A stretch of 64,000 nt of DNA. It comes from Asterias amurensis. Lineage: Eukaryota > Echinodermata > Asteroidea > Forcipulatida > Asteriidae. The stretch is from assembly GCF_032118995.1 (NCBI RefSeq), contig NC_092666.1, forward strand, positions 6,894,501-6,958,500, in the 5' to 3' direction. The translations under genes were made by a program, and so were the position numbers. The notes under the pieces were generated by a model. That model saw only the letters and a list, made by a program, of their open reading frames with translations. It was not told where the DNA came from and searched no databases. This document shows, piece by piece, positions 1 through 64,000 of this stretch. Each line of letters starts with the position of its first letter. Within the stretch, counting starts at the first letter, position 1.

Positions 1-928
1 TTGTAATCTACAAACAAGTACAGTACCATCAGCTATTGTTGTAATCCGAATGAATTATATGAATTGTATGGATTCGTTTGAAAACAATACCTTCTTTAAA
101 AACTCTGGCAAGCGTATTGGGCAGTCTTCCCTGGTACCAGTCTTTCCAAGCACAGTTTAATAAAAAAGGCAAGGACCTGGAGATACAGATAAGAAGACGG
201 ATGATAAATTAGCAACACCCCCTGAATACAAAACATTACAAGACATGTTGAAATAAAAATGAATAACGAAATAAATCACAGCAGGACTGGGCACCTATCA
301 ATGTGGTGGGTGTTGGTACTTAACAAGAAAAATATGAGAGCAGAAAACTAAGTAAGTGAAATCCTTGTAAAGAGAAGTTCATATGCTCACTATTGGTAAT
401 GACTCAAAAAAGTTATTAGCATAACACCTTACTTGGTGACGAGTAATGGGGAGAGTTCGATAATAAAGAACATTGTGAAAACATTGTGAGAAACAGCTCC
501 CTCTGAAGTGACATAGTTTTCGAGTAAAAAGTAGTTTTCCATGAATCTGATTTCAAGACCTCAGATTATTTGCTAACACGTGACGGACAATCCTGCAATC
601 AAATGGCAAGAATCTGCTTGGGTGTTATATAATATAAAACATTGCGAGAAACAGCTCCCTTTGAAGTGACGTAGTTTACGAGAAAGAAGTAATTTCCACG
701 AATTTGATTTCAAGACCTCAGATTTATAATTTGAGGTCTCGAAATCAAGCATCTGAAAGCACACAACTTCGTGTGACAAGGGTGTTTTTTATTTCATTCA
801 TATCTTGCAACTTCGACGACCAATTGAGCTCTAGTTTTCACATGTCTGTTATTTTATGCATATGTTTACATACACCAAGTGCGAAGACTGTTCCTTGACA
901 ATTACCAATAGCGTCCACTGTCTTTAAA
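1..928. repeat. Segmental duplication, copy A, left part
   Basis: This stretch matches 41937-42864 nearly base for base; the constant offset is 41936. Homology ends in the decayed right end of a TTAA-type MITE (about 380-928), after which the two copies become unrelated. The match probably continues left of the window, because position 1 falls inside a 37-base tandem duplication that is seen complete at about 41910-41980. It holds no gene that I can support. Confidence 0.9.
380..928. mobile_element. MITE of the GGCAGTGGACAC family, internally duplicated
   Basis: The body matches the MITE family described at 36760-37148: TTGGTAAT near the left end, CGGCTCCCTCTGAAG-like core, the dyad around GAGACCTC/GAGGTCTC, and a right end ending CCACTGTCTTTAA. 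The core appears twice (about 480-570 and 640-740), separated by some 60 unrelated bases, so this copy carries an internal partial duplication. The same structure is present in copy B (42317-42862). Confidence 0.75.
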
Positions 929-983
929 GCAGATAATATTCCTGCTTGATGCCCTAACACTCATAACAAGTAATTAGTCGTAC

Positions 984-1112
984 CTGAACTGTTTTTCGCA
1001 TTCCCATGCCATCTCCCAATATAGCACCCTCGCCCATCTTATAATGCTGGCACAAGAGCTTCACTCCCTCCCTTTGGTCATCTCTCAAATATCGGTTGAT
1101 AGTTACAGGAAC
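984..1112 (-). CDS. Exon of an ERCC6L2-like SNF2-family ATPase, changed motif I
   Basis: On the minus strand a 129-nt stretch is flanked by a plausible acceptor (CCCAGTAG) and donor (GTACGA), and both boundaries fall between codons. It encodes 43 residues: [18 protein letters not shown], then [16 protein letters not shown], then GMGMRKTVQ. From memory of the family this lines up with the start of the helicase domain of ERCC6L2, a SNF2/Rad54-type DNA-translocase protein of DNA repair (human [13 protein letters not shown], then LGDDMGLGKTVQ). The Walker A loop differs: GLGKT is GMRKT here, replacing a glycine needed for nucleotide binding, and DD is DG. No neighbouring helicase exon is seen, and the upstream side is occupied by a SINE and a Gypsy fossil. 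It could be a decaying exon, a pseudogene fragment or a divergent paralogue. Confidence 0.6.
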
Positions 1113-1344
1113 CTACTGGGTGATCACAAAGAAAACAAAGATAGGATGAGTTGCTTAGTGTTCTTCAATTACAAGTCATAAATGATTTGTGAGTTTTGTC
1201 TAAAATTGCGTCTGGTTACAAGAATGCCACTTGAAATAAATAAGATGTACATGTAAGATGGAAAAAACCATCATAGCACATGAAAACAGTTATCATTACT
1301 AATAATTACAACAATCAAGCCTTGTCAGTCAACACATTAATTGT

Positions 1345-1655
1345 GTCGCCAGACACACATGGCCTGAAGGCCACTTCAAGTTATTGCCTTCAATCAACTG
1401 TTTTTCTACAGGATTACCCCCTATACTGTACAGTCCATACAGATTCAGACTTGGGTATAATCTATCTGAAGCCTGGCTGGAAGAGCAGAAAGCACTACCT
1501 CCCCAACTTTTATGAAGCAATATGGTTACGTGTCTTGCTTAAGAACACAAGTGTAACGACCAGGACTCACATCTGCGTACACTCTACTGATCTAACGCCA
1601 GAGCTTGAATCTGCCGCTCTTAACTGCTAGACCATTACTCGTTACTGTTGTGTTT
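1345..1655 (-). mobile_element. tRNA-derived SINE, diverged, minus strand
   Basis: Read on the minus strand from about 1655, the sequence begins GCAGTTAAGAGCGGCAGATT, then CAAGCTCTG. After a degenerate box B (GTGAGTCCTGGTCGTTACAC) it continues CTTGTGTTCTTAAGCAAGAC and ATTGCTTC. The same order of blocks is found in the better preserved SINE at 39171-39519. The head is a class-II (Ser/Leu-like) tRNA relic, so this is a pol III retroposon and not a tRNA gene. The inner body towards 1345 shares little with the other copy. An open frame across it on the plus strand has no coding signal. Confidence 0.6.
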
Positions 1656-1749
1656 ACGAGCGACTAACAGCTCTAGTCTAATTACCATTAGGTCAAAGGT
1701 GATGTGTGCATGTGCCGACAGGATTGTGATTTGTAGTTTAGATACGAAT

Positions 1750-4700
1750 AAACCGAAGATTCAACATTGGCGACAAGGATAATCCGGAAAAATCATGGAG
1801 AAAACATTAATCCCCATATTTGACTGTTTTTCGGAGCCAGCAACCCTTGGACCACGATGGGAAAGGTGGCTAATGTCGTTCGAGCTGTATGCAGACGGCA
1901 AAGGCCATATTATTGGGTCCACCACGGCACCGAAGGTAAAGCAACGACGACGTGCACTAATGCTCCATCTTACCGGACCGGACGTACAGGACATTTTCTT
2001 GACATTACCGGACACGGGCGTAACTACTGATATTGAAGCTGCCAAAACCGCACTGAACAAATACTTCGTGTCGCAGAAAAATGCAGCATTTGCACGGCAG
2101 ACTTTTCACTAAGTCGTCCAGAAGGAAGGGGAAACGGTATAACAATTTGTAACCAGACTTCGGAGAGCGGATAGTTTATAGAGACTGTGATTTTGGAGGT
2201 GAAAAAGACAACCAGATAAGAGATGCTGTGCTGAGTAAGTGCAAATCTGATTACGTTAGACGCAAGCTATTGGAAGCAGGGGATGAACTAACTTTAGCAA
2301 AGGCAATGAAAGTAGCTGATAAATGTGAAAAGGTAGAAAGTCAGATGGCTGCACTGTCTGTCAAGAGCAAAACCTCTCTGTCTGACACTACTGTCAACAT
2401 GGTGTCTGACAGGAAACCAAAGCTTCATGACAAATCAAGCAAGCCTAAGAAATGGACCCAACAATCCAAATATCAGAGACAGGAAAACCAATCAGTGAAA
2501 TCCGCAACCACTACCATGACTACCAAAGGTGCTTGTTACAGGTGTGGTCGAACTGGGCATTTTGGTCGAGACCCCAAGTGCCCCGCAAGAGGCCAGACAT
2601 GCCAAAAATGTTCTGGAAGAGATCATTTTGCCAAAGTCTGGAAGACCAAGTCCAAGCCAACAGTCAACTAAATCGGTGAGCAACATCTTGATTCAGAACC
2701 ATCGCATGACTATGCATTTCTCATTCATGAGAATACTTACTCGAATAAGATGAAGGTAACTGTTGGTGGAATTGACCTTCACATGTTGATTGATTCTGGG
2801 GCCACGAGCAACATTATTGATGAACATATATGGGAATCACTGAAAAATGCCAAAATTAAGTGTGAATCTCGTGTCGCCCCACCAAACAGGAAATTGTGGG
2901 CATACGGTGCTGACCAAGCCCTATCGTTGAAAGGTCTCCTCAGCTGTGAAGCGAGTATATCAAGGAAATCTGTACTAGCTGAATTCATTGTCATGAAAGG
3001 CAAAGTTACTGCAATGGAGTTGGGTGTACTCAAAATTGGAGTGGATGCAGCTAACGGTCCTCCACACACCCCAGCGGTAGCCAGTATTGATGAGCGCACA
3101 AAGAACGGCTCGACCCAGTTCCATAAGCAATTTCCAGATGTGTTCAAAGGTGTGGGTAAGCTCAAAACTGAACAAGTGAAGCTTCACATTGACCCCTCTG
3201 TAAAGCCAGTAGCACAACCACTAAGACGCACTCCATTCAATATACGCAGTAGAGTGGAGGAAAAGATTCATGAATTGGAGGATCTGGATATCATTGAGCG
3301 TGTGGATGGTCCAACCCCTTGGGTCAATCCAGTAGTCACCGTGCCAAAACCGAATGGTGACATACGACTCTGCCTCGACATGAGACGCGCTAATGACGCG
3401 ATAATACGCGGTCGTCATCCAATACCGACAGTAGATGAACTGTTGCAGACAATGAATGGATCAAAGTTCTTCAGCAAGCTCGACCTCAAATGGGGCTATC
3501 ACCAGTTGGAACTTGATAACGAGTCGCGAGGGATCACAACCTTTGTTACTCATTGCGGTCTCTACCAATACAAACGCCTACTCTTTGGAGTTAGCTCTGC
3601 CAGTGAGCAATACCAATACATGATCGCAAAGACACTAGCGGGACTTGAAGGTGTGGAAAACATCTCAGATGACATCATCGTTCATGCGTCTGACAAGGAG
3701 ACATACAATAACAGAGTATTCGCAGTGTTACGCAGATTAGAGGAGGTAGGTCTTACCTTGAACCAAGAGAAGTGCCAGTTTAACATGAGTCGGTTGGTAT
3801 TCATAGGAATCCTACTATCAGAGAAAGGCATTGGTCCTACACAAGAGCGCATAAGAGCTGTAGCAGAAGCGTAACGTCTCAGAGATTCGAAGCTTTCTGG
3901 CCTCGTTGGGTTTAGTGGCAGATTCATACCTAACTTTGCTACAGTATCAGATCCACTTCGAAAGCTAACCAGGAAAGGAATTCCATTTCAATTTGGATCT
4001 CACGAGCGAACAGCCCTTCAATTCGCTAAAGGAAAGCCTCGCAAACGCAACCACGCTCGCGTACTATGACAAGAACGCACCGACAAAAGTGATAGCTGAT
4101 GCGAGTCCAGTAGGACTGGGTGCTGTTTTAGTCCAGGAACAACACGACGGTTTAGTTCCGATCTGCTATGCCAGTCGCAGTCTGACAGATTGCGAGAGGA
4201 GATATTCGCAAAAAGAGAAAGAAGCCCAATCACTCGTCTGGGCTTGTGAAAGGTTTCACGCATTCATCGATGGTCGCAGTTTTGAACTACTGACTGATCA
4301 CAAACCATTGGAGGCGATATATGGACCCCGATCTAAACCATATGCACGGGTTGTATACATCCCTGGAGGCGATAACATTGCCGACGCTTTGTCCCGGCTT
4401 TCGCAGGAAAAGATTCAATTCAAGCATGACCACGGGGCAGAGGACTATGTGCGTTTTGTAGCCATCTCTGCCACACCCAGTGCTATGACAACGAAACAAG
4501 TTGAAAGCGCATCCGCAGAGGATAAAGAGCTAGCAGAGTTAAGAGAAGCAATTCGAACCGGCCACTTTGAAAACTGTAAGGCGTATGCGCCGATTGCAGG
4601 AGAGCTATGTGTCATCGGACAGCTGATATTACGTGGAACGCGTATCGTCTTACCACAGAAACTCAGACAACAAGCCTTAGCTCTTGCGCACGAGGGTCAC

Positions 4701-5900
4701 CTTGGTATTGTGGGAACGAAGCAAAACCTTCGCACAAAAGTATGGTGGCCAGGAATGGAAAAAGGTGCCGCAAAGTTCTGCAGATCGGGCCATGGATGTC
4801 AAATTGTAGCACGGCCTGACCCCCCGAGCCACTGAGACAACCACACTCCCTGACGGTCCTTGGCAGGACTTAGCAACTGATTTACTTGGACCATTTCCAT
4901 CAGGACATTCCGTTCTAGTAGTTATTGAACTACAGCCGATACTATGAGTACCAGATACTGAGTTCCACTACCGCAGACAAAGTCATTGATTCCCTAGAGG
5001 AAATCTTCAGCCGTCATGAACTTCCAGTGACACTGAAATGCGACAATGGTCCACAGTTCCGTTCTCATGAGTTTCGCGAGTTCTGTGAGGAGAACGGTAT
5101 AGACCATGTCAAGGTCACAGCTAAGTGGGCTCAAGCGAATCACGAAGTGGAACGCCAAAATGACTCAATCATGAAAAGAATCCGTATCGCACAGGCCGAA
5201 GGTCAAAACTGGCGAAAGGAACTACGAAAATATGTCACAAAGTATCGCGCTACTGAACACCCTGCCACAAGGAAAATTCCAGCTGAGTTGTTGTTCAATC
5301 GAAAAATGCGCGGAAAACTACCAGTGTTTCAGGCCGAGAATCATTCTGACTTGGAAGTCCGCGATTGCGATGCCGAAAACAAAGGAAAAGCCAAGCTTTA
5401 CACGGACGCTCGTCGGAATGCAAGATACTCTGAGGTGGAAGTCGATGATGAAGTCCTTGTGAGACAAGAGAAAACAAACAAGTTTTCTACCCCGTTCAAC
5501 CCTGAACCCTTCACAATTGTGGGCAAAACTGGCAATAGTGTCATAGTTGCCTCCCTGAAAGGTGCTCAATATTCGCGAAACACTAGCCATGTGAAGAAGT
5601 TTATGCAAACTGCACGTGACGCGGATATGCCACTGTCTGACCCTGCCATTCAACCATCCAAAATGGATCACGGAAGAGCTGTCCCTGAACAGATTTAAGT
5701 TTCCCCGACTCAGAGTTTGGCAGATACCAATTCATTAGCGACCCCCCACCTGTCGTGGACCAACAATCTTCCCCACCATTGCCAGACCCAAAAGACAGTG
5801 TGGCATGCATCCGAAATACAAAGACTTTGTTCCAAACTGAATGAACTGGACAGAACTTTGAACTTGAAGATGAGAATACATTGAAAACATTGAAAGCATT
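1750..5900 (+). mobile_element. Broken Ty3/Gypsy (Metaviridae) element, Mag/SURL-like
   Basis: A fossil LTR-type retroelement. In order it shows a gag region with a CCHC zinc knuckle (CYRCGRTGHFGRDPKC), then pol with an aspartic protease (LIDSGATS), reverse transcriptase, RNase H, an integrase zinc-binding region and an integrase catalytic core with its C-terminal part. A TTGGCGACAAGG block just before gag resembles the primer-binding region of Mag/SURL elements known from sea urchins. I could not find a matching pair of LTRs. The coding region is interrupted about four or five times, so the copy is dead. It lies only in copy A of the duplicated block. Its age is uncertain without LTRs; the fair preservation of domains suggests a moderately old copy. 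Confidence 0.9.
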
Positions 5901-5971
5901 GTTCTTTGTTTATTAAAGTTTGTTTAAAAGTTGAAGTTTTTCATTGTATTAAAAAGCAGTTGGTCTTTATT

Positions 5972-7562
5972 CATCAAATGAAAACTTATTGCAATATTGG
6001 TGAAATTATCCACCATCTTGAAAAATAACCACATGGATGCTAATCATGGCCACCCGTTCATACGCAGGAAATTCCCTTCAAAGATTTATACCCTTCAAAA
6101 ATGGACCATAACACTTCAAACTTAATGGATTGTGGGGTGATGTTCCAAGGTTATTTATTGTCTAAATTACTTTCAGGATAATTTCTATTCAATCACGATG
6201 CATCAAAAGGGATACATCATTGTAAAGGTGCTGTTTAATAACATGGATTTCTCAAATAATTAGATTTTAATCTATAGATTTTAAAAGGGGTTGTCCCACT
6301 AGATTGAATGGCACCAACACGCATAAACATAAAACTGACTGTTTATTGTGTTGATCCTAATTCATCATTTGACGTTTGTGACTTTTGTTTTAAGGAAATA
6401 TATACCGTAAGAACCGTTTGCTTTTTAACATTTTATAATCACTGCGTACTATTTTGAAAATACCATTGTAAGATATCTATTTAAAATGCGTACATTTTAA
6501 GTGCATAAAACTTCTATCCTTTTGTTGATAATGAGTTAAATTAAGTATATATACTGTAATTAAAAACACCCCGACCGATTTAAACTTTGTAATGAACTGA
6601 GTTTTTTGGGGGGTTGATGCAACACAATTACATTCGAGTGCCTTCAAGTTTAAGTTGACCATTAATAGTGAAAGATACGAGAATCGGATCCGTCTCATTG
6701 TTCCAAACTCTAATAAAACAAGGTACCCTGTTTGTTCGAAAACTTTTCTTGTTGATATGTTGAAACTGATTCTCTAGGATCTCAAATAATTAAATAAGCT
6801 TTTATTGACGCAGAAGAACAACATAGACAATAAAGACAATTGCAATTTTGTCCACAGACTGAAATAAAAGCGTTGAAACCCATCCTGTTAAAAAGTTACA
6901 AATTGAAATGCACAGAGAGCTTAAGATATGACCAATTTGTCTGTAGTAAATACTCAAGGTCATTGAAGCCCAGTGTGAAACCGCAAACTGGCCCTCGGGA
7001 GACCCCCTGCTTGTTTTCCAGTAGATAGCAATCTAAACACTCTGCGGTTTGTAAACAAATGATCTCTGGTGAAGGCCAGTCACTGCGAGCTCGTCCTATA
7101 GCCCGTCCGATAAAGTAATCACTACAAGGGAATTGAACATGGGACAGAAACCTGGTCCTGGACGGGCGCCCGTCTGTTGGCTGTCCAGGATGAGTTTTGA
7201 CAAGGTCCCTTAGCCCCCAGGATTAATGCCCATGGCGAGACACAGGGTTGGTCTTACACAGTGCAATACTTTGGCTTCATGATCAAGGTGGTCAAAAAGA
7301 TTGGGGGGGGGGGACATTTGATATTGTGCCCCTCTCCCCTTGTCACACCCCACCCCCACCTATTTGATGCCCACCACCATTAGTAGAATTTGAAACTTTG
7401 TATGGTGGAATTATAACTATAAGAACATTTTGTGATAACACCGTGTGAGTCTCTTTTTGAATAGTGTTGGTTAGGAAAAGAACTATTGGTTAAAGACTCA
7501 TGTTTCTATTAATATACGCTGATCATCTACAGGAGAAAAATCATTAGAAAGACTGTACTTAC
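5972..7562. other. No gene seen (copy A, start of right part)
   Basis: Intron-like sequence. The part around 7020-7330 (with CTGTCCAGGATGAGTTTTGA) has a diverged inverted relative at 53500-53720. A G-run of variable length lies at about 7302. No splice-bounded frame or RNA gene was recognised. The same applies to 53889-55477 in copy B. Confidence 0.6.
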
Positions 7563-7620
7563 GGTTTGTCTAGACGCTACTGCTCGCCGAATGTACTTCT
7601 GTAGGGCTTCTCTACGCAAC
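7563..7620 (-). CDS. Internal exon of a minus-strand host gene (copy A)
   Basis: A 58-nt exon with strong splice signals: acceptor CTATTGTAG and donor GTAAGT. It gives one base to the split codon from the exon before it and then encodes LRREALQKYIRRAVASRQT. In copy B (55478-55535) there are two base differences in the exon, and both are silent (Ala GCG/GCA and Thr ACC/ACA), which favours coding. Upstream partner: 8551-8601. The residues are charged and probably helical. I do not recognise the protein. In copy A the exon that follows in copy B (51570-51646) is missing, because the middle is replaced. Confidence 0.55.
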
Positions 7621-7849
7621 CTACAATAGACAACAAATATCGGACAAATTTACATCAGCTGCTGTTAAACGAAGAAATTCAGTCTGAATGATCTACATGT
7701 GTAGTTGCATGTTTTGTGTGCATTTGATCACTAGCACTAGGCATAGTTAATTTTTTACAGTATTACATTTAACAATCACCAGTTTCTTAAAAGCTCAGAA
7801 ATGCCTAGTTCATTTTGATGGGCCATAATAAATAATTTGCAGATATTAA

Positions 7850-7905
7850 TTACCTATTTGTCTTTTTAAAGACAAATTTGTCTTTTTAAAGACAAATAAA
7901 GCACT
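7850..7905. repeat. Two tandem copies of a short palindrome
   Basis: TTTGTCTTTTTAAAGACAAA occurs twice head to tail; each copy is its own reverse complement. It is also present in copy B at about 55785-55815. It could extrude as twin hairpins; no function is evident. Confidence 0.7.
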
Positions 7906-8039
7906 TGTGTTTTAATCCAACGAAGTCTTTTGGGGAAAAAAGTACCTACATGTGAGGTGAAACTAAACATGGATTGGAAATCACTAACAAGGCAATACTT
8001 TTTTTAGAAACCTCTTTCATCAGTGAAAAGGGTACAAAA

Positions 8040-8420
8040 GAATTTAGGCTTTGCATGGTGAGGTTATCAATTGTATTTGGTTTGCGGTAACAAACACCAT
8101 GTGTGTTTCTACTTGCCAGGTAGAGTTTGTTCTTTAGAGAACTGTCTTGCTTTATTTTACTACCGCAAAGAGTAGAATATCAGATTTTGGGGAAACTTGT
8201 TCTGAAAAGAACTGTCCTGCTTTGTAAATATACCCTGGCGCAGGTATAGAAAATTGGCTGGGAAAACTACTTTAGCTTTATAGGATCATAATTAACTGCA
8301 CTACCCCGGAGTCAGTCTCTTGACGATGACTAGAGCAAGCTAGTCAAAATGTTGAGACCAATTCAAGAACTGAATAGTGATTTGGTTCCCTATTGGGCAA
8401 TCCATATAGGCTTCTGCTTG
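8040..8420 (+). mobile_element. Fragment resembling the terminal region of a Penelope-like element
   Basis: Two diverged blocks (TTGTTCTTTAGAGAACTGTC at about 8128 and a like block near 8199) precede a conserved stretch with a hammerhead-like fold at 8314-8358, then AATTCAAGAACTGA. From memory, such blocks occur in the terminal repeats of Penelope-like retroelements, which carry hammerhead motifs. No reverse transcriptase is present. The copy B equivalent is about 55980-56345. Confidence 0.4.
8314..8358 (+). ncRNA. Degenerate hammerhead-ribozyme-like motif
   Basis: AGTCTC pairs with GAGAC at the outer ends. Inside lies TTGACGA, then a perfect stem GACTAG / CTAGTC around AGCAAG, then AAAA. 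This resembles the hammerhead plan CUGANGA, stem II, GAAA. Two core positions differ (C3 reads as T, G12 as A), so self-cleavage is doubtful. Copy B (56232-56275) keeps the fold, with a G:U-type change in the stem. Confidence 0.4.
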
Positions 8421-8550
8421 CTTTTTGTTGATATGTCTCTAATTATTTTACTAATAATGCAAAAGTTATACATTTCTACTTATTGTTGCTGTGTGTTTTG
8501 AAGTTTTTAAAGCCTGGGTGAATAAATAAATAAACAAATAAATAAACTAC

Positions 8551-8601
8551 TTGTCCTCTGCATTGTTCTCACTAAGCCTCTTCCTTGATTCAACCTCTTC
8601 C
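8551..8601 (-). CDS. Internal exon of a minus-strand host gene (copy A)
   Basis: A 51-nt exon after the acceptor CTGTTTGCAG, ending before GTAGTT. The frame is G, then EEVESRKRLSENNAED, then AA. The leading G completes a codon begun by exon 39559-39710 (AG+G = Arg), and the trailing AA completes with the first G of exon 7563-7620 (AAG = Lys). This gives a continuous reading frame across three exons. The sequence is identical in copy B (56468-56518). The donor is weak, and if it is not used the frame stops one codon later, so a short terminal exon is the alternative. The product is highly charged and probably coiled-coil. Confidence 0.5.
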
Positions 8602-8869
8602 CTGCAAACAGCCAATCAAAACAAACAAAGCTCGGTAAATAACACCAAACTCACAAATCTCAACTCATGTTAATCCGGCATGGTTAGGCCTGTCGTCTTC
8701 TTGATACTCCAAGGGTTTATGAAGATGCACCAAAAATTCAATCCATACTCAGTGATACTGCCTCTTGAAATACATAATTCTAAAAACACCCCCTTTCTGG
8801 AGCTCCAGCCCTGGCCCCACGCGTCGACCTGGTATTCTTTTAAAACGTAAGAGCCCATAATTTAATAAC

Positions 8870-9243
8870 AACAAGTATGCTAGTAGCTGGGTTAAACAAC
8901 AAAGGAACCGCAGTTGAAATGACCAGATAGAGAAAGGACCAATAACACTATAATTAATACCAGTATCAGCCACCAGACTTGAGATTTGCTGAATTGGGCC
9001 CGCCAGACACCCCCCCCCCCCTCTCCTGGGTTAAACATCTGAGGAAAACCAAGTTGAAATGACCAATGATGACACTATTCCCAATACCAGTATCAGCCAC
9101 CAGACAAAGGTTTTGCTGCATTAGGCCTGCCAGACCCCCCCCCACGTTAAATATCAGACCCCCTTGTAAACCAAGTTGAAATGACAAATGATGACACTAT
9201 TCCCAATACCAGTATCAGCCGCCCGACAAAACATTTGCTGCAT
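8870..9243. repeat. Poly-C satellite, left remnant (copy A)
   Basis: About two and a half units of a roughly 135-bp tandem repeat. The core order is GTTGAAATGACCAAT, ACACTATTCCC, CAGTATCAGCC, CCAGACAAA, TTTGCTGCATT, GGCCCGCCAGACA and a C-run of 8-13, then AACATC and GAGGAACC. A LINE interrupts the array at 9244; it resumes at about 11840. The long open frames on the minus strand only reflect the repeat. Confidence 0.85.
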
Positions 9244-11840: not shown

Positions 11841-11844
11841 ATTA

Positions 11845-48060: not shown

Positions 48061-48068
48061 GACCTTTT

Positions 48069-50142: not shown

Positions 50143-50149
50143 CTATGGG

Positions 50150-51646: not shown

Positions 51647-52527
51647 CTGAGAAAATGAGAAAACATTCATAATGTTATAATTTGTTTAGAGTGACCATTA
51701 GCATCGACGTCAATCTGTCTTGAAAGATGGGGGGAGGAACATCGTTAGTCATACCATCTACGGCGTGGGGTCCCGCCTCGCTTAAGGGCCCCAGGAAAAT
51801 TTTAAGGCCATTTATGCTCTCTAGTGCAATCTTATGAGTCTGAGGGAAGATGTGCCCCATCTGAGATCTTGGAATTTAATGGCTATTTCGAGCTATGACA
51901 AATGATGCACCATTTAATTGCTATCCTGGTTATTAGCTAAAAACCAATTCAATTATAGCTGCGTATACAAATTATTTCTACATACTGTATAATGCTCAGA
52001 CGGCGGTTCATTCCTAGCATCGTCAAGGGTGGATTAAGACAGGAAATTCTATAAAGGGGGTGGGGGCTTGTTGGTAGGGCAAACCAATTAAAGATGGAGC
52101 ATGCTATAAAGCGGAACGCAAAACCTTTTTCGGCCTGGGCAAAACTTTGCATTCTAGATTCTCTGGTGCAAACTTAGGCCAATAGGCAAAACGAATGGAA
52201 CAGAACATTTATAAAGCCTTTTAAATGTGAGCAGCAGTTGTATAACCTTTTTGGTTAACATCATCTTCATGTGCGGATCTATAAGCATGCTCATGTGAAA
52301 CCTTTACGGCGTGGGTCGGGCCCGTTTAAGGGCCTGGGAACAGTTCACATTCTAGATGCTCTGTGGTGCAATCTTAGGGCAACTGTCAACAAGAGGCAAC
52401 AAGAATGGAATAGAGCAAAGCCTTTAAAATGTGAGCAGCAGTACAACCTTTTGAGTTAACAGCATCTTCAAGTACGGATCTACATACATGACACAAGTTG
52501 TAGGGGGCAAATGAGTCCGGGCTCGCC
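51647..52527. other. No gene seen; diverged repeats
   Basis: A motif TTCTAGATGCTCTGTGGTGC, then AATCTTAGG, recurs in diverged form near 51805, 52145, 52350 and 53435, usually after a GGCGTGGG, GGGCC(C/T) block. These look like old copies of one short element. Confidence 0.45.
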
Positions 52528-52907
52528 TAAAGACTCTGGACACTATTGGTAATTTTCAAAGACCAGTCTTCTCACTTGGTGTATCTCAAAATGCCTAAAA
52601 TAACAAACCTGTGAAAATCTGAGCTCAATCGGTCGTTGCGAGATATTAATGCACAAAACAAAAAAACACCTGTCACACAGAGTAGTGTGCTTTCAGATGC
52701 TTGATTTCGAGACCTGGCATTCTAAATCTGAGATCTTGAAATGAATTTCATGAAAAATTACTTCTTTCTCGGGAACTACGACACTTCAGAGGGAGCCGTT
52801 TCTCACAATGTTTGATACTATCAACCTCTCCCCATTGCACGTTACCAAGTGAGGTTTTAGGCTGATAATTATTTTGAGTCACTACCAATAGTGTCCACTG
52901 CCTTTAA
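52528..52907. mobile_element. MITE, GGCAGTGGACAC family, reverse orientation
   Basis: Left CTAAAGACTCTGGACACTAT, right CCAATAGTGTCCACTGCCTT with TTAA. The dyad is TTGATTTCGAGACCTGGCAT-like with GAGATCTTGAAATG. Confidence 0.85.
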
Positions 52908-52910
52908 TCA

Positions 52911-53193
52911 GGCCTGGATCCTAGATGCTGTTTGGCTTCTCACACTATTGCTCAAACGTTGACAAAATTGCACCTCCCCCTTGAAACAGTGGAAGGGACT
53001 ATCCCCCCCTCCCCCCCCCCATTTTTGAAGGGTGGAGGACATAAACTCAAATGTTTGCCGTATCTAATGACTTGTCTTTATCTTGAAACTCAAGTATTGC
53101 ACCGTATAAGACCAAACCCTGTGTCCCGTCAATGGCATCAATCATAATGTTTGAGCATTTGTGTGAGAAGCCAAACAGCATAGGGTCCAGGCC
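52911..53193. mobile_element. Inverted-repeat element with GGCCTGGATCC ends
   Basis: Left GGCCTGGATCCTAGATGCTG, TTTGGCTTCTCACAC, TTGCTCAAAC; right GTTTGAGCATTTGTGTGAGA, AGCCAAACAGCATAGGGTCC, AGGCC. The inverted arms of about 45 bases are good. It abuts the MITE on its left. A C-run lies inside at 53005-53020. Confidence 0.75.
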
Positions 53194-53888
53194 CGCTTAT
53201 AGGCGATGTGACCATGTTTACATTCAAACCACCCTCTGTTGACAAAACACTCTATACGTCATGTTTCGCCGGGCACCTGAGTTGCGCAGTCACAGTAAGA
53301 TTGCGTACACTTTCTAGCTGGCTGCCAAAACACAAAGGTTTTGCCTGGCAGTATGCGCGCGAATCATGTTATGGTTTTCGTGTGATGTCAGAGGTCACAT
53401 CGTCTATAGGCACGGGAAAATTCTGCATTTTAGATGCTCTGTGGTGCAATCTTCGGTCAATTTTGAGAGGGGGACGTTTGATATAGTGTCCCCCACCCTT
53501 CTAAAAAGTTGTGTCATCCTTAGGGGTCTTGTCAAAACTCATCCTGGACAGACCACAGGACGAGGCTCGTCCGATGTCACATTTTTGTCGGACGGGCCAC
53601 AGGATGGGAGTTCATATGGAACAAGGTTCCACACGATGAAATGTGTATTCCCGTCCGATACACAGTACCCAAGGCACCCCACTGAGCGCTCTGCGGTTTC
53701 ACTGGCTCATTAAACACTAACTAAACAAACCTGGGGTTTGCGGTTTGGGGCAAGTCTGGACTGACTGTTTGGAGGTCACTGTAGGAAAGATTATACTAGC
53801 ATAGCTCATGTAAACCGTTAACAGTGTTTTATTCTCCATTCCTAAATTGTATAGGTTTATAAAAATTAAACCAATGAAAAATATAAAG
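53194..53888. other. No gene seen; inverted relative of copy B sequence
   Basis: About 53500-53720 contains GTCTTGTCAAAACTCATCCT, GGACAG and other words found inverted at about 55040-55130 within the duplicated block. An inverted pair about 1.5 kb apart therefore straddles the duplication breakpoint at 53889. Confidence 0.5.
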
Positions 53889-55477
53889 CATCAAATGAAA
53901 ACTTATTGCAATATTGGTGAAATTATCCACCATCTTGAAAAATAACCACATGGATGCTAATCATGGCCACCCGTTCATACACAGGAAATTCCCTTCAAAG
54001 ATTTATACCCTTCAAAAATGGACCATAACACTTCAAACTTGTTGGATTGTGGGGTGATGTTCCAAGGTTATTTATTGTCTAAATTACTTTCAGGATAATT
54101 TCTATTCAATCACGATGCATCAAAAGGGATACATCATTGTAAAGGTGCTGTTTAATAACATGGATTTCTCAAATAATTAGATTTTAATCTAAAGATTTTA
54201 AAAGGGGTTGTCCCACTAGATTGAATGGCACCAACACGCATAAACATAAAACTGACTGTTTATTGTGTTGATCCTAATTCATCATTTGACGTTTGTGACT
54301 TTTGTTTTAAGGAAATATATACCGTAAGAACCGTTTGCTTTTTAACATTTTATAATCACTGCGTACAATTTTGAAAATACCATTGTAAGATATCTATTTA
54401 AAATACGTACATTTTAAGTGCATAAAACTTCTATCCTTTTGTTGATAATGAGTTAAATTAAATATATATACTGTAATTAAAAACACCCCGACCGATTTAA
54501 ACTTTGTAATGAACTGAGTTTTTTGGGGGGTTGATGCAACACAATTACATTCGAGTGCCTTCAAGTTTAAGTTGACCATTAATAGTGAAAGATACGAGAA
54601 TCGGATCCGTCTCATTGTTCCAAACTCTAATAAAACAAGGTACCCCGTTTGTTCGAAAACTTTTCTTGTTGATATGTTGAAACTGATTCTCTAGGATCTC
54701 AAATAATTAAATAAGCTTTTATTGACGCAGAAGAACAACATAGACAATAAAGACAATTGCAATTTTGTCCACAGACTGAAATAAAAACGTTGAAACCCAT
54801 CCTGTTAAAAAGTTACAAATTGAAATGCACAGAGAGCTTAAGACATGACCAATTTGTCTGTAGTAAATACTCAAGGTCATTGAAGCCCAGTGTGAAACCG
54901 CAAACTGGCCCTCGGGAGACCCCCTGCTTGTTTTCCAGTAGATAGCAATCTAAACACTCTGCGGTTTGTAAACAAATGATCTCTGGTGAAGGCCAGTCAC
55001 TGCGAGCTCGTCCTATAGCCCGTCCGATAAAGTAATCACTACAAGGGAATTGAACATGGGACAGAAACCTGGTCCTGGACGGGCGCCCGTCCGTTGGCTG
55101 TCCAGGATGAGTTTTGACAAGGTCCCTTAGCCCCCAGGATTAATGCCCATGGCGAGACACAGGGTTGGTCTTACACAGTGCAATACTTTGGCTTCATGAT
55201 CAAGGTGGTCAAAAAGATGGGGGGGGGGACATTTGATATTGTGCCCCTCTTCCCTTGTCACACCCCACCCCCACCTATTTGATGCCCACCACCATTAGTA
55301 GAATTTGAAACTTTGTATGGTGGAATTATAACTATAAGAACATTTTGTGATAACACCGTGTGAGTCTCTTTTTGAATAGTGTTGGTTAGGAAAAGAACTA
55401 TTGGTTAAAGACTCATGTTTCTATTAATATACGCTGATCATCTACAGGAGAAAAATCATTAGAAAGACTGTACTTAC

Positions 55478-55535
55478 TGTTTGTCTAGATGCTACTGCTC
55501 GCCGAATGTACTTCTGTAGGGCTTCTCTACGCAAC
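55478..55535 (-). CDS. Internal exon of a minus-strand host gene (copy B)
   Basis: The counterpart of 7563-7620, with the same acceptor and a donor CAAACA/GTAAGT. It encodes LRREALQKYIRRAVASRQT; two silent differences from copy A. It joins in phase to 51570-51646. Confidence 0.55.
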
Positions 55536-56231
55536 CTACAATAGACAACAAATATCGGACAAATTTACATCAGCTGCTGTTAAACGAAGAAATTCAGTCT
55601 GAATGATCTACATGTGTAGTTGCATGTTTTGTGTGCATTTGATCACTAGCACTAGGCATAGTTAATTTTTTACAGTATTACATTTAACAATCATCACCAG
55701 TTTCTTAAAAGCTCAGAAATGCCTAGTTCATTTTGATGGGCCATAATAAATAATTTGCAGATATTAATTACCTATTTGTCTTTTTAAAGACAAATTTGTC
55801 TTTTTAAAGACAAATAAAGCACTTGTGTTTTAATCCAACGAAGTCTTTTGGGGAAAAAAGTACCTACATGTGAGGTGAAACTAAACATGGATTGGAAATC
55901 ACTAACAAGGCAATACTTTTTTTAGAAACCTCTTTCATCAGTGAAAAGGGTACAAAAGAATTTAGGCTTTGCATGGTGAGGTATCAATTGTATTTGGTTT
56001 GCGGTAACAAACACCATGTGTGTTTCTACTTGCCAGGTAGAGTTTGTTCTTTAGAGAACTGTCTTGCTTTATTTTACTACCGCAAAGAGTAGAATATCAG
56101 ATTTTGGGGAAACTTGTTCTGAAAAGAACTGTCCTGCTTTGTAAATATACCCTGGCGCAGGTATAGAAAATTGGCTGGGACAACTACTTTAGCTTTATAG
56201 GATCATAATTAACTGCACTACCCCGGAGTCA

Positions 56232-56275
56232 GTCTCTTGACGATGGCTAGAGCAAGCTAGTCAAAATGTTGAGAC
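56232..56275 (+). ncRNA. Degenerate hammerhead-ribozyme-like motif (copy B)
   Basis: The counterpart of 8314-8358. Stem II reads GGCTAG / CTAGTC with a G:U pair, and the loop AGCAAG is unchanged. It has the same two departures from the catalytic core. Confidence 0.4.
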
Positions 56276-56467
56276 CAATTCAAGAACTGAATAGTGATTT
56301 GGTTCCCTATTGGGCAATCCATATAGGCTTCTGCTTGCTTTTTGTTGATATGTCTCTAATTATTTTACTAATAATGCAAAAGTTATACATTTCTACTTAT
56401 TGTTGCTGTGTGTTTTGAAGTTTTTAAAGCCTGGGTGAATAAATAAATAAACAAATAAATAAACTAC

Positions 56468-56518
56468 TTGTCCTCTGCATTGTTCTCACTAAGCCTCTTC
56501 CTTGATTCAACCTCTTCC
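56468..56518 (-). CDS. Internal exon of a minus-strand host gene (copy B)
   Basis: Identical to 8551-8601: frame G, EEVESRKRLSENNAED, AA. It joins in phase to 55478-55535. Its upstream partner, the copy of 39559-39710, would lie beyond the window. Confidence 0.5.
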
Positions 56519-56804
56519 CTGCAAACAGCCAATCAAAACAAACAAAGCTCGGTAAATAACACCAAACTCACAAATCTCAACTCATGTTAATCCGGCATGG
56601 TTAGGCCTGTCGTCTTCTTGATACTCCAAGGGTTTATGAAGATGCACCAAAAATTCAATCCATACTCAGTGATACTGCCTCTTGAAATACATAATTCTAA
56701 AAACACCCCCTTTCTGGAGCTCCAGCCCTGACCCCACGCGTCGACCTGGTATTCTTTTAAAACGTAAGAGCCCATAATTTAATAACAACAAGTATGCTAG
56801 TAGC

Positions 56805-57167
56805 TGGGTTAAACAACAGAGGAACCGCAGTTGAAATGACCAGATAGAGAAAGGACCAATAACACTATAATTAATACCAGTATCAGCCACCAGACTTGAG
56901 ATTTGCTGAATTGGGCCCGCCAGACACCCCCCCCCCCCCCTCTCCTGGGTTAAACATCTGAGGAACCACCTAAAACCAAGTTGAAATGACCAATGATGAC
57001 ACTATTCCCAATACCAGTATCAGCCACCAGACAAAGGTTTTGCTGCATTAGGCCTGCCAGACACCCCCCACGTTAAATATCAGACCCCCTTGTAAACCAA
57101 GTTGAAATGACAAATGATGACACTATTCCCAATACCAGTATCAGCCGCCCGACAAAACATTTGCTGC
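56805..57167. repeat. Poly-C satellite, left remnant (copy B)
   Basis: The counterpart of 8870-9243. One unit keeps GAGGAACCACCTAAAACC, a stretch copy A has lost, and C-run lengths differ. Confidence 0.85.
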
Positions 57168-59775
57168 ATTTTTATTTATTTATTTATTTTAAATCTTTAG
57201 ACATACACAATAGTTGCAAGTTGTACAGGGGCTGTCAAGGCTAAAACAAAAGTATAAAACTGTCATCAAAAGATGTGTAAAACCAGACCCCTGCCAACGA
57301 TAAAAATATAATTATACAATATAAAAAGGTGATTGCACTGAAACATTTAAGAATCACACAATAGAAATCATTAAAACACAACAAAATCAGACTATTGAAA
57401 ACATAAAACTACACCCACAACAAAACACCGCAGCGATAAGAGGAAGGGACAACAATTGAAAATAATAAAAAACATACAATGGACTAAAAAAAAACACAAA
57501 AAATAAAATTGGCACAGAGTGCACCCTCACAGATTCATGCCAACCCACTGGGCTCGAGGACAATGATAGCAGAGAGCCTCCCCAAACACCCAAAAAGCAC
57601 AAAGACCCCTTAGACAATTAAAACCACTAGCACTTTTAACATACTAAAAATTCCCCCCTCAGCTTCATACGAAAGGACTTGTACCCCTCCAAAATCAAAA
57701 CATTCCTGGTATCCAAAGTGAGCTCTGAGAACATTTTAGGAAAGCGAACAATGGTAGAAAATTTATAAGCATCCGTCCTAGGTTTTAGGTGATGAAAAGT
57801 GAGCAATTCTGTGTGACGGGAGTTAACTTTAGACAGATTAGTTAAGTCATTCATAAAACTATACCGAGTGGACATCAACAGTTTTACAATAAAGCAAATG
57901 TTTAAAAAAAATCTTCTGTCAGACAGCAACATCAGACCCAGAGTCTTCAGTCTTTCTTGATAAGGCTGTTCCATATATGTTTGCCGAAGTATCATCCTGC
58001 TGGCTCTGCGCTGTACCGATTCGATTGATATGATGTGTTTTTTACGGTGAACCCACCAGACGGGTGAGCAGTAGTCCAAGATTGGCTGCACAAGAGTCTT
58101 GAACAAATGGAGCGATACGCACGAAGGACAGTTGCCAGAGATGAGGCGAATCAAACCAATCAGTCTATTACATTTTGAAGTAACAGCCTGCACTTGTAGA
58201 TCCCAAGATAAGTTACTCTGGAATATACAGCCTAGAAGCTTGATGGAGTCCACACATTCCAGGGGGGAGTTTCCAAGATTGTATTCTGGTTTGCTCATAC
58301 GTCGCCAAGTCAACCGTATCGATTTGCACTTGTCAGCATTTGAGCGCAAACAGTTCAATTTAGCCCAGTTAACTATAGTGTTTAGGTCCTTCTGAAGTAG
58401 AGAATCCGGCGCGTCAGTTGTAACATTTTTGAACAAAGATGTGTCATCTGCGTACTGTACAAGGTTCGAAGAAAGTTGAAGCTGAAGATCGTTCGCGTAC
58501 AAAACAAAGATCAGGGGGCCAAGTACAGAGCCCTGTGGCACTCCTGAACCGACCGGTAGCCAGTCTGAAGTAAAGCCTTTGTAGACAACTCGTTGCAGGC
58601 GGTTTGTTACAAACGACTCAATCCAGTCAAGAGCAGCACCCTTTATGTTGTAGCAAAGTTGGAGTTTCTTAACAAGAATATCGTGGCTTATAGTGTCAAA
58701 CGCACGACTGAAATCTAAGGAGATTACATCCACTGCAGGTACCCATGCGTCCAAAGATTGAAGCCATCGAGAAATAGCTGACACCAATGCTGTAGAACAA
58801 GACCTCCCAGGAATGAACCCATGTTGCCGGTCAGCTACAAGTCCGTTGATTTGACAGTGGTCGAGAATTTGACGACACAAGATTTTTTCTAAAAGCTTGC
58901 AGATTATTGGAGTCAAAGAAACGGGTCTGTAATTGATCAAGTTGCTCTTTTCTCCTTTTTGAAGACGGGCACTACATTAGCACGTTTCCACGCACTTGGA
59001 AGACAACCTGAAGCAAGAGTGTGGTTGTAAAAAGTTGTGAGAACAGGAACAATGGCTGGGGCAGCAAGTTTCAACATTTGGGCGCTAATACCATCAGGTC
59101 CATATGCTTTGTGTGCGGAAAGATTCCGAATCTCAGACGAAACTTGAGTTGAAGTGATGGAAAAACGTTCCAACGGGGGAAATTCCAACGTGGGAGAAGT
59201 GACACGGTCCTGGTCGGTGGATCCGGAGAAAAAACTGGCGAAAAGAGAGTTAAACTCATTTGCAATCCGAGATGGGTCACTTATATTTTCACCATTGATG
59301 AAATAAGAATTGGTAGATTGAGAAGATTTGCGTTTGGACTTCACAAAAGACCAGAAAGTTTTCCGATTATCTCTTTTCTTAAACAAATCAGTTACGAAGT
59401 CACTGTACGCCCTTTTGGAGAGATTGCGTACTTTGTTCCTGACAAGTTTAAATTGTTTCCAAGCTGTCTCAGTTCCACTTACACGAGCTCGTTTAAACAA
59501 CCTTTGCTTCTCAAGGATGAGCTGATGAAGTTCCTCGGTGATCCAGGGCTTAGCTCTCTTGCTACCTTTTCGGACAGGAACACACTCCTTGACGCAATTG
59601 AGGAAGAAATCACTGAACGTATCCAAAGCATCGTTAATGTCGTTGTAGTCAATCACTCCCCAAGGAACTGCAGCTAGCAAAGTCTGGAAATGAACAAGGT
59701 CCGTTTTGTGGTACTGGAAGGTTTCCCTTACACGACGTGGTAATTTTCCAGGCGACCCGCGAATTAGGGGCCCGC
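57168..59775 (-). mobile_element. 5'-truncated LINE inserted in the poly-C satellite (copy B)
   Basis: The counterpart of 9244-11840, with the same 3' (AAAT)n tail, the same 5' truncation and the same satellite junctions, so it is one ancestral insertion. Confidence 0.85.
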
Positions 59776-59797
59776 CATCCAGGGGCCCGCCAGACAC
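57636..59797 (-). pseudogene. LINE reverse transcriptase, one frameshift (copy B)
   Basis: The same protein as 9713-11835 but split in two frames. In copy B one T is missing from the T-run near 58957, so the frame shifts between VVPVFKK and NYRPVSLTP. The catalytic motif reads YADDTSLF (YADDTFLF in copy A). Downstream motifs LDFSRAFD and PQGSVLGPL are intact. The difference lies in a homopolymer, so a sequencing or assembly error is possible. Confidence 0.8.
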
Positions 59798-60235
59798 CCC
59801 CCCCCCCCGGGTTAAACATCAGAGGAACAGCCTGAAACGCAGTTGAAATGACCATAGAGAATTAGGACGATTAACACTATTCTTAATACCAGTATTCAGC
59901 TGCCTGACAGAAGTTTTGCTGCATTGGGCCCGCCCGACACCCCCCCCCCCCTACTTAAGTAAACATCAGAGGAACCACCTCAAACAAAGTTGAAATGACC
60001 AATGACACTATTCCCCAAACCAGTATCAGCCACCAGACAAGGTTTTTGCTGCATTGGGCCCGCCAGACTCCTCCTCTCCCAACCCCCAGGTTAAACATCG
60101 GAGGAGCCACATAAACCAAGTTGAAATGACCAATAACACCATTCCCTATACAAAGTTGGGGGGGGGGAGCAGAGCGTCTGCCAGGCCAAATGCAGCAAAA
60201 CATTTGTCTGGCGGGTGACACTTTGTTTTTGGAAA
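59776..60235. repeat. Poly-C satellite, right remnant (copy B)
   Basis: The counterpart of 11845-12310, including the small fold-back end. Confidence 0.8.
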
Positions 60236-60575
60236 AGTGTTTTTGGTCATTTCCACTCGGTTGCAGGTGGTTCCTCCGATATTATGTCAAAGGGGCGGAG
60301 GAGCGGGATGTCTGCAGGCCTAAGCAGTTTGTCTAGCAGTTCATACATGTGGATGTAAAGGGTTTTAAACCAGAAAGGGCTTTCAACCTTTTTCAGTTGC
60401 TCAGATCTCATGGTGTTATCTCCTTTCATAAATTTTGAACAAAAGGTTGTATAAACCTAGAGTTTTCAAAGTAGCAGAGTATAGCTTTTGCTCTTTTCAG
60501 ATTTCCAAAAATTAAATAAAAAATGACAAGGGTCGAAAGACAACTCTTTTTGCCTTAAAGCATCATTGTACAAAC

Positions 60576-61266
60576 TTAAAGTCACCTGGAAGTAGAATTT
60601 TTTTCTTTCAAACATAAGAGTATATAATTTTTTTAGTAATTGTTTGGAAAAGTTTCCGTATGGCGCCACCACTTTTTCATTCGATATGAAAAAATTTAGT
60701 ATCTAATTTACCTCAATGAGATATCCTTTTTTGTAAAAATGAGTGAAAAAGTGGTGGCGCCATACGGAAAGTTATCCAATTGTTTGTCACGATTTATATG
60801 TTAAAAAAATATATAAAGTTGTTTGGGGGGCTGACTCCGCCTACCCCTTTTGTGACGCCATTCGAGGCAGACTTTGCCTGCAATGCGTATAATAAACACA
60901 CGTGCAAAGTACATGTACGTCCAAGTCGTGAGTTGGTACATTTCAAAAAGTGTTTTTCTGCATTCAGCAGCAATACACCTGGTCGGCATTGCCGGAAAAA
61001 ACATTTTTGTTTGTTTTTAAAAGTACAAACTCACGACTTGGTCCGTACATTTTGCAATTGTGTTTACTCTACGCATTACAGGCAAAGTCTGCCTCGATTG
61101 ACGTCACGAACAGCGCCTTCTCGGGTCGGGGTCTACTGTTAAATTTGTAAATAACATAAGAACTGATTTTTTAAAACCTTAGTTAACTGATTCACATTCC
61201 ACTCATCAAAACACATTAGTGACAAAAGCTTTATTTTTAAAAAATACCACTTCCAGGTGACTTTAA
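60576..61266. mobile_element. TTAA-flanked fold-back MITE, AGTCACCTGGAAGT family (copy B)
   Basis: The counterpart of 12658-13209, enlarged by a hAT-like MITE nested near its left end. TTAA is present at both ends. Confidence 0.8.
60646..60777. mobile_element. hAT-like MITE, 132 bp, copy-B-specific insertion
   Basis: The inverted repeats GGAAAAGTTTCCGTATGGCG, CCACCACTTTTTCAT and ATGAGTGAAAAAGTGGTGGC, GCCATACGGAAAGTTATCC are flanked by a perfect 8-base duplication, AATTGTTT. The empty site is 12720-12727. It has no transposase, so mobilisation must be in trans. Confidence 0.95.
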
Positions 61267-61452
61267 GAGCCCAATAAAACTTCTGCCCACAAATTAATCA
61301 CAGAAGATGTTCAACTGCCTCACTGGCTGATGACCATTATGCAATACAAGACCTACCATTGGAACTAGTTGTGGTATTGGCAGTCTGTTTTTCAGCTGAA
61401 GTGCCAGGCGGAACATGTCAGTACTGGGCAGGCCCGCCCACCGTCGCCCACC

Positions 61453-61483
61453 ATGGCTACAACACTGATCATCACCAATGAAG
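61453..61483 (+). CDS. Candidate first coding exon, plus strand (copy B)
   Basis: The counterpart of 13396-13426: CCCACCATGG start, frame MATTLIITNE, donor GTAAGT. Same reservations. Confidence 0.25.
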
Positions 61484-62396
61484 GTAAGTATTACAGTTCC
61501 AACATCAAGAGTACTGTACTGTAAACAAAAAAGGTGAAAGCAAATGAGAAAATTGGAAAGAAGTTGTTCAATCTTCACTTACCTTCATCCATTGTTGAAA
61601 TGAACGAGCTTTACCACTGATTGGTGATGTCTTTACCTCTTCCACAGAATAGAAGAAGCAGGCGTGGGTAAACAAAGCACACATCACATATCCGTAGACA
61701 ACAAAACAGGCCTAGGCCTAGTGTCAATTATTATAAAAAAATTTTTTATAGGTAATACAGCATGTACACAAAACAATGAGATCAACTGGATTATTATTAG
61801 GCCCAAAGAGAAGAAACACAGCACTAGTAACCTTAATAATCAACCACTTGATGATTGGGTACTCCGGAACTTCTGTAACTACGGTAAAACACTACCATAT
61901 CGTAACTGGTAAATAACAAACTTTCCCATGCACGCAGCAAACCATCATGATTGATCATCACACTGATCACGAGCCCCATACTTAAAAAATACCAATATCC
62001 CATCTTTAGAGATAACAAAAGAAGAAAAGTCCTACTCACTTCTATACTGCACGCACGGGCGAGAATTAACTGGTTGATGGATGAAGAATAATCTGTAATT
62101 TTTAAGGCGATTTAGTGAAATTATTGGAGAACATTGGTGAAGAACAATTGGCGATATAATTTGAATCATAATGAAATTAGCCTGTCAATAGAGGGCGCTA
62201 TCAAAGTTCAATTTGTATGACTTTTACCAATATTTTTGTGCAGAAATCCAGCCTTCTATTTATTTGGTCGTTATCATACAGCATTTTTCATAATATGAGC
62301 AGTGGAATGTATTGCCTGCCAGGAAATAGACTGGAACGTAGGCCTAATTTCATTATGCCTGGAAGCACAAACACTTGCTAAGCACAGAAAAATAGC

Positions 62397-62783
62397 TTAA
62401 AGGCAGTGGACACTATTGGTAATTACTCAAAATAATTATTAGCATAAAACCTTACTTGGTAATGAGTAATGGGGAGAGGTTCGTAGTATAAAAGATTGTG
62501 AGAAACGGCTCCCTCTGAAGTGGGTAGTTTTCGAGAAAGAAGTAATTTTCCACGAATTTGATTTCGAGACCTCAAGTTTAGAATTTGAGGTCCCGAAATC
62601 AAGCATCTGAAAGCACACAATTTTGCGTGACAAGGGTGTTTTTTTCTTTCATAGTTATCTCGCAACTCCGACGACCAATCGAGCCCAAATTTTCACAGGT
62701 TTGTTATTATATGCATATTATGTTGAGATACAGCAAGTGGGAAGACTGGTCTTTGACAATTACCAATAGTGTCCAATGGCTTC
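62397..62783. mobile_element. MITE, GGCAGTGGACAC family (copy B)
   Basis: The counterpart of 14318-14704, with the same decayed right end, so it was inserted before the duplication. Confidence 0.85.
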
Positions 62784-63360
62784 TGGCGACCCCAAAATTT
62801 AATGTAAGAAGCGTCACTGCGGTAATGCTTCTCAGATTGTGTTTCTATAGGAACTATTCTTCCCATTATGACAATGAAACTCTGAAAAACCAGTGGAAAA
62901 AAATCTAAGTGGTAAGAAGTACGACAGCTTTGGATAGTACAATGCATCGTTTAAGAAGTACATTTACGTCCGGGTATGGAAAACGGGGTACCACTTTTTA
63001 TTCCCTCCCCTCCCCCCCCCCAAATTGAATATAAAAGCATTACCGCAGTAACGCTTCTCGGATTGTATCCCTATTGTATCCTAATTTGACTAAATTCTTT
63101 CCAGTTGGACCATATTGAACTCTGGAATGCCATAAAACTTTATACATGCGGTGAGGAGTAGGGCCTATAGCAGTTGGATAGTAGGCCCTACAGTGCAAGT
63201 TTTAGATAAAAAAAATTATACTTCGCTTCCTGTTACAAACGCTTGACCCCCCCCCCCCTCCCCGATCATAACACGCATTACCGCGGTAATGCTTCTCAGA
63301 TTATATTCCTATTGTGATCCTTCCTATTTTTATTCTCCCAAAAATTTAAAATGAGAAGCG

Positions 63361-63707
63361 TTAAAGGGAAGGTACACGTTTGGTAATTACTCAAAACAAT
63401 TAACTTAAAAACTGACTTGGTAACGAGCATTGGAGAGCGGTTGTTCATGGTATAAAACATTCTGGGAAACGACTCCCTCCGAAGTAACGTAATTTTTGAG
63501 AAAGGGGTTATTTCTAACTAAAATATTAAAAGACTTCTAGCTAGAAGTATTTTATTCCTAGCTGCAAGCACACCTAATGTTTTCTCGCAACTTCGATGGC
63601 CAATTGAGCCCAAATTATGACAGGCTTGTTATTTTATGCTTATGATGGGATACACCAAGTGAGAATACTGGTCTTTGACAATTACCAAACGTGTACAGTG
63701 CCTTTAT
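63361..63707. mobile_element. MITE, variant family member (copy B)
   Basis: The counterpart of 15288-15633; TTAAAGGGAAGGTACACGTT at the left and GTGTACAGTGCCTTT at the right. Confidence 0.7.
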
Positions 63708-64000
63708 TGCCTCCCAGATTGTATTCCTATAGATAATATTCAACTTTCAAATAATGGGTCAGTAAAAACTTATAACTGCGGTGAAGCTTAGTAAACAGCT
63801 TTAGATAATCGCATTTTGAGAAACATTTCATCTTTTTTGTACATTATGGGGATGAAAAAGGTGTAACAATTTTGAACCCCTCTCACAAATTGAACATAAG
63901 AATCGTTACAGCGGTAATGCTTTCCAGCTTGTATTCCTATATAAAGGGAAAATTCTTTCCATGTTGACACAAATTACACAGGTTTTTAAAAACGCAATCA

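Follow-up and report, generated by a model that had tools for sequence, protein, structure and literature searches.

The 64,000-nucleotide stretch of Asterias amurensis DNA analyzed here (contig NC_092666.1, below C19, positions 6,894,501 to 6,958,500; in the following called the window) comprises about one and a half units, U2 and the first 22 kb of U3, of a tandem array of approximately six units at C19 6.80–7.09 Mb. From the sequence, this is better explained as a genuine tandem segmental duplication, in far more than two copies, than as a pair of haplotypes. Very probably, a block of about 45 kb was multiplied head to tail at this location, with separate deletions in the units. A preliminary description of the window had proposed, as one of two readings, a duplication with a period of 42–48 kb in which one middle part was changed. 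The duplication itself is supported, but the array has many units instead of two, each of the two middles was altered by a deletion of its own, and the centre is itself repeated.

The units and blocks referred to below are (window coordinates):

1–41936, plus strand: unit U2 (C19:6894501–6936436), 41.9 kb; a deletion of about 11 kb peculiar to it makes it shorter than the other three whole units fetched
41937–64000, plus strand: first 22 kb of unit U3; the whole of U3 is C19:6936437–6982163, 45.7 kb
1–928, plus strand: block A, first copy; the two copies diverge chiefly over the last approximately 110 bases
41937–42862, plus strand: block A, second copy, which ends in a recombinant (left to right) between two copies resembling a miniature inverted-repeat transposable element (MITE)
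929–5971, plus strand: middle of U2, a decayed Ty3-like retroelement remnant with Pfam matches in separate frames
42863–53888, plus strand: middle of U3, about 11 kb, kept in U1 and U4 and lost from U2
5972–15927, plus strand: block B, first copy
53889–64000, plus strand: block B, second copy
5966–5976, plus strand: deletion junction of U2, where the 3′ side of the element is joined to U3 position ~11953
388–928, plus strand: two partly overlapping MITE-like copies of about 390 bp with the ends TTAAAGGCAGTGGACACT

The window contains repeated blocks with unrelated middles

A BLASTN comparison of the window with itself located both copies of both blocks. Block A (1–928 against 41938–42862) is 97.0% identical between the copies, in the same orientation and order. 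The first part of block B (5972–12728 against 53889–60646) is 98.8% and the second part (12720–15927 against 60778–64000) 98.1% identical, the second copy of the latter being about 130 bases longer. Repeated words at distances above 20 kb reach at least 500 bases in the window, compared to 14–17 bases in all ten mononucleotide shuffles. The middles are unrelated, since U2 901–6000 matches the whole of U3 only in 29 bases just past the junction, at the start of block B. Thus the near-identity that had been noticed between 1–928 and 41937–42864 and between 5972–15927 and 53889–64000, in the same order and with unrelated middles, holds at 97–99% identity. The end of block B at 15927, which had also been described, is only apparent, because the window stops at 64000; homology continues, with gaps, across the whole unit. 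Therefore the region at 16–42 kb, previously taken for a single-copy centre, is not single-copy: a probe from 37.2–40.6 kb finds at least ten near-full-length copies with 98–100% identity in two arrays on C19, the window's own copy counted. The same probe gives a partial eleventh match at 7.084 Mb and six more at 94% elsewhere on C19.

The window is part of a multi-unit array

Approximately 287 kb beyond the window were examined as sequence. The region C19 6.80–7.05 Mb (250 kb) is without any N and contains, in head-to-tail order, U0 (cut at the left edge), the whole units U1 to U4 and the first 13 kb of U5. U1 is 46.7 kb long and U4 54.8 kb. The blocks have the properties of segmental duplications, being longer than 1 kb, more than 90% identical and present in multiple places; the multi-kilobase blocks are mostly 95–99.5% and the tandem-repeat parts 90–95% identical. 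Unit order, pairwise divergence, rearrangements and junctions were read directly from the sequence.

An inverted array of units is located at C19 7.33–7.60 Mb, and further copies were found on C19, C11, C17 and C13. All probe counts across the genome contigs are lower bounds. The block A probe (100–900) has at least 21 full-length matches. Five are in plus orientation on C19 at 6.848, 6.895, 6.937, 6.982 and 7.037 Mb with a spacing of 42–55 kb; the others include five in minus orientation at C19 7.345–7.555 Mb, seven at C19 4.94–5.20 Mb, three on C11 and one on C13. A probe from 15.0–16.5 kb has at least 26 full-length matches on C19, C11 and C17.

Three further observations concern the surroundings and relatives of the array. 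At C19 4.94–5.20 Mb, probe matches recur with equal scores at an offset of approximately 131.4–131.8 kb (e.g., 4942813 and 5074206), which points to either a higher-order repeat comprising some three units or an artefact. To the left, a different tandem array adjoins at C19:6674704–6805500, with seven places 16–24 kb apart that are 90–100% identical to the probe. On C6 (11530404–11672585), four places approximately 36–56 kb apart match the 37.2–40.6 kb probe with 76–83% identity; these are perhaps an older, related array.

Proposed origin of the two middles

The middles of the two copies differ because U2 kept a Ty3-like element and lost the neighbouring 11 kb or so, while in U3 the reverse is found. 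The element remnant shows the domains in the expected order (zinc knuckle, protease-like, reverse transcriptase, RNase H and integrase); the protease matches fall below the Pfam cut-off. It is also present in U5, and its start was found in the C13 copy. A probe of its 3′ half has at least six matches within the two C19 arrays, including a partial one, and also matches fragments on C1 (96%), C16 and C9. The 11 kb middle is likewise present in U5, as shown by the fetched sequence, as far as it extends, and by a probe from 47.9–50.6 kb.

In U5 the left MITE-like copy is followed by the Ty3-like element, then by another MITE-like copy of the same orientation and by the beginning of the 11 kb middle. 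As regards long terminal repeats, the direct repeats flanking the element in U5 are the MITE-like copies, which are 81.6% alike; a 121-base repeat (93%) is also present. The family has the characteristics of MITEs, being short, with terminal inverted repeats and in many copies; six copies were inspected, some of which have degenerate 3′ ends. A copy of the family found at 388–928 is the recombination substrate in the sister units. At the 41 substitutions that distinguish the two U5 copies, U3 has the left type at 22 and then the right type at 18, the sole exception being one right-type site within the left run. If indel columns are included, four of 79 columns are exceptions, two of which match neither U5 copy. 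The two direct repeats of the undeleted copy are thus represented in U3 by one hybrid repeat, which is the pattern of a deletion by non-allelic homologous recombination (NAHR) that removed the intervening element. U1 and U4 have the same block A end as U3.

At the junction of the U2 deletion, three bases (CAT) are common to both sides. The exact 39-base junction sequence occurs once in the genome, in a search that a mismatched copy would escape. In U2, 14.9 kb separate the block A probe from the 15 kb probe; in the other eight of the nine copies in the two C19 arrays in which both probes match, the spacing is 21.0–27.8 kb.

According to the mechanism we propose, a block of about 45 kb containing transposable elements, minisatellites and one gene-exon relic would have been multiplied head to tail. 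The older unit would have had the Ty3-like element as well as the 11 kb middle, an arrangement that U5 still shows. In U1, U3 and U4, the element would have been lost via recombination between the flanking direct MITE-like copies, which are about 81% identical. In U2 it would have been retained, and another deletion, with a microhomology of 3 bases, would have removed approximately 11 kb. The copies may have arisen, and may stay alike, through unequal crossing over and gene conversion.

Alternative explanations

The likeliest alternative, which we nevertheless regard as improbable, is that the array is real but the number of units or the inverted array at 7.33–7.60 Mb is partly an assembly error, for example both haplotypes of one array set in opposite orientation. 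The two arrays are indeed mutually inverted and similar in length, and they do not form two groups in a tree built from 2.5 kb of 13 of the 26 copies. The only well-supported split in this tree sets three copies (two on C17, one at C19:4.88 Mb) against the ten copies of the two arrays; the tree does not order the copies inside the arrays. The order of unit types, however, differs between the arrays. In the plus array the Ty3-like element is absent, present, absent, absent and present from U1 to U5. In the inverted array, read from 7.555 Mb downwards, it is probably absent from the first of the five block A copies, judged by the 97% identity class and 22.0 kb spacing of this copy, and present in the next four, all of which were fetched and run on into the element.

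Still less probable is that the element-free units are original and that the Ty3-like element was inserted later in U2, U5 and the inverted array. Insertions usually add DNA at an empty site, which would agree with this order of events, but the switch of the U3 MITE-like copy from the left to the right U5 type is what a deletion between direct repeats leaves behind. In addition, the C13 copy has the start of the element too, which fits the element-bearing state being older.

It is very improbable that, as the preliminary description had considered, the assembler set two unpurged haplotypes of a heterozygous animal end to end, which would make the duplication an artefact. Against the two haplotypes of a diploid stand six units, whole or in part, in 250 kb devoid of N; the 15.0–16.5 kb probe has its full-length matches on three chromosomes; and purge_dups was applied to the assembly (PMC10625585). 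The degree of divergence fits haplotypes. The units U0 to U4, which are the five comparable ones, differ pairwise by 0.16–1.04% over four stretches, the repeat-rich 23–38 kb part of the unit being left out. This is within the range of the heterozygosity of the species, given by a second assembly project as 0.96% by k-mers and 0.632% heterozygous single-nucleotide polymorphisms (PMC11090083). Identity alone therefore decides nothing; the number of units and their contiguity do.

The pattern of divergence does not single out U2 and U3 as a sister pair, and the five units are about equally diverged. One stretch (U3 8606–11570) is deleted in U2, so that all five units cover three. Over U3 12000–13830, U0 and U4 are nearer to U3 than U2 is, and over U3 13885–23000 the same is true of U0, U1 and U4. 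Thus, U2 is the closest unit to U3 in one of three stretches, whereas a haplotig pair would consist of exactly two copies, each closest to the other. In 33 windows of 500 bases, the nearest unit switches from window to window with many ties. Of the two-state sites, 245 in all, 211 are specific to a single unit; the other 34 are common to two units, in eight different pairs. A small inversion at U3 13837–13880 was considered and rejected; the site is a masked palindromic stretch that is identical in U0 to U3 and next to which U4 shows a short difference in length.

The published assembly was generated from HiFi reads with a mean length of 12.5 kb at 22.7x using hifiasm, purge_dups and Hi-C (PMC10625585). 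There, 90 contigs (491,503,102 bases) became 22 scaffolds (491,537,102 bases), which amounts to 34,000 bases for 68 joins and, by our own arithmetic, 500 bases per gap. The units were probably joined through read overlap, because scaffold gaps have 500 bases each and yet the 250 kb stretch is without N.

Several points weigh against a tandem duplication with separate deletions. The mean HiFi read, as reported there, is shorter than a unit, and the array may be misassembled. In U4 (C19:7007169–7021094), two abutting copies of 6,963 bases are 99.986% identical; this doubling may be a very recent tandem duplication or an assembly artefact. Over U3 38440–44460, U2 is the nearest unit to U3 (0.58%), and U2 and U3 are the commonest sharing pair at the two-unit sites (9 of 34), the latter being in favour of haplotypes. 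The exclusion of the repeat-rich 23–38 kb part from the unit comparison is a further weakness. The proposed order of events has one recombinant end and the C13 copy as its whole basis, and the inner part of the element in U2 (2730–3795, 1,066 bases) does not align with that in U5 (2722–3356, 635 bases).

Other content of the unit

Further features of the window are:

9716–11893, minus strand: reverse transcriptase frame (RVT_1), one frame of 726 codons
18304–19573, plus strand: 51-base tandem repeat inside the unit
22593–26616, plus strand: 12-base minisatellite, approximately 335 copies
27317–30175, plus strand: tandem repeat of approximately 653 bases inside the unit
49783–50973, minus strand: relic of a coding exon and its upstream intron, with a homologue on C1

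The RVT_1 frame, which we read as the type without long terminal repeats, is divided into two frames in the second copy of the region (57636–59818). The 12-base minisatellite has approximately 287 copies in U0, 230 in U1 and 130 in U4; none is listed for U3 at the length shown.

The C1 homologue of the exon relic (at ~17.409 Mb) has an open frame of 270 codons and no match to a Pfam family. The relic itself is interrupted by an insertion of about 456 bp with GGAGT at both ends. A frame of 120 amino acids (49783–50142, minus strand) is free of stops in all 24 full-length matches, 22 of which have 120 and two 117 codons; the two shorter copies lack 9 bases, in frame, and a further copy at C19:7.604 Mb is broken. 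We rejected an active gene at 49783–50142, because the exon and the intron have diverged to the same extent from the C1 homologue (79% and 78%), and the alignment contains, besides the large insertion, a gap of 19 bases as well as further small gaps.

A functional gene in the unit was detected neither with Pfam, ARAGORN and Rfam nor with the pooled ratio of nonsynonymous to synonymous changes (dN/dS). The Pfam searches covered 10 chosen frames, 146 of the 403 frames of at least 45 codons, and the 10 frames again at a laxer cut, and revealed only retroelement domains and marginal matches: DUF5578 (E 0.0047, frame of origin not traced), Ly-6_related (0.027) and bPH_8 (0.048), the last two below the Pfam cut-offs. 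ARAGORN identified no tRNA, and no Rfam family reached the gathering score. The pooled dN/dS of 475 overlapping U3 frames against the other units is 0.998 and gives no sign of selection; single frames have too few changes to judge. Most likely, the unit is non-coding repeat DNA that was multiplied by unequal exchange.

A sex-linked region was also rejected, since the candidate of the species, according to PMC11757944, is at 7–12 Mb of chromosome 10 and not on C19. The mitochondrial contig (16,427 bases) accompanies 22 others in the assembly, and its COX1 scores higher under the echinoderm genetic code (844.4 bits) than under the invertebrate one (808.8 bits). Elsewhere in the assembly (C5:658874–676634), COX1 occurs twice at a distance of 16,420 bases, and both copies share 98% identity with this contig. 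COX1 alone was checked here; the mitogenome may have been copied into the nuclear genome head to tail, or the pair may be a misassembly.

Comparison with known systems and implications

The array is an ordinary kind of genome change. It resembles macrosatellites such as human D4Z4 and DXZ4 in its tandem, mutually similar units of many kilobases. In contrast to these, the sea star units are 42–55 kb long, vary in length by large indels, and have no demonstrated conserved frame. With haplotigs it shares near-identical adjoining blocks and a haplotype-like divergence, but it has far more than two copies, no N between them and mostly private differences. Tandem segmental duplications of animals have the same long head-to-tail blocks with more than 90% identity and internal deletions at interspersed repeats; they differ in that no functional gene was found in this unit and that copies are also inverted on C19 and present on other chromosomes. 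A survey of segmental duplications included 117 vertebrates and one starfish and describes a bias to tandem copies in vertebrates (PMC13431229). Literature listings searched for echinoderm arrays shaped by NAHR and for A. amurensis satellites yielded no pertinent report.

In the published sea star assembly, the stretch should be treated as a multi-copy array, neither purged as haplotigs nor counted as single-copy. It offers a clear case of a retroelement-bearing segment that was excised by recombination of two MITE-like copies inside an array. The U2 deletion and the U4 duplication are marked units with which unequal exchange could be traced in populations. Identity to the window is mosaic among the more distant copies: the 15.0–16.5 kb part is 97–99% identical in the C11, C17 and C19 4.9–5.2 Mb copies, whereas the block A part is just 92% identical on C11 and at C19 4.9–5.2 Mb. 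It is conceivable, if on balance doubtful, that DNA is exchanged among these arrays across chromosomes; the mosaic identity would then follow from ongoing ectopic gene conversion, perhaps in heterochromatic or pericentromeric DNA. If this is true, the family would be a natural assay of interchromosomal exchange in an echinoderm.

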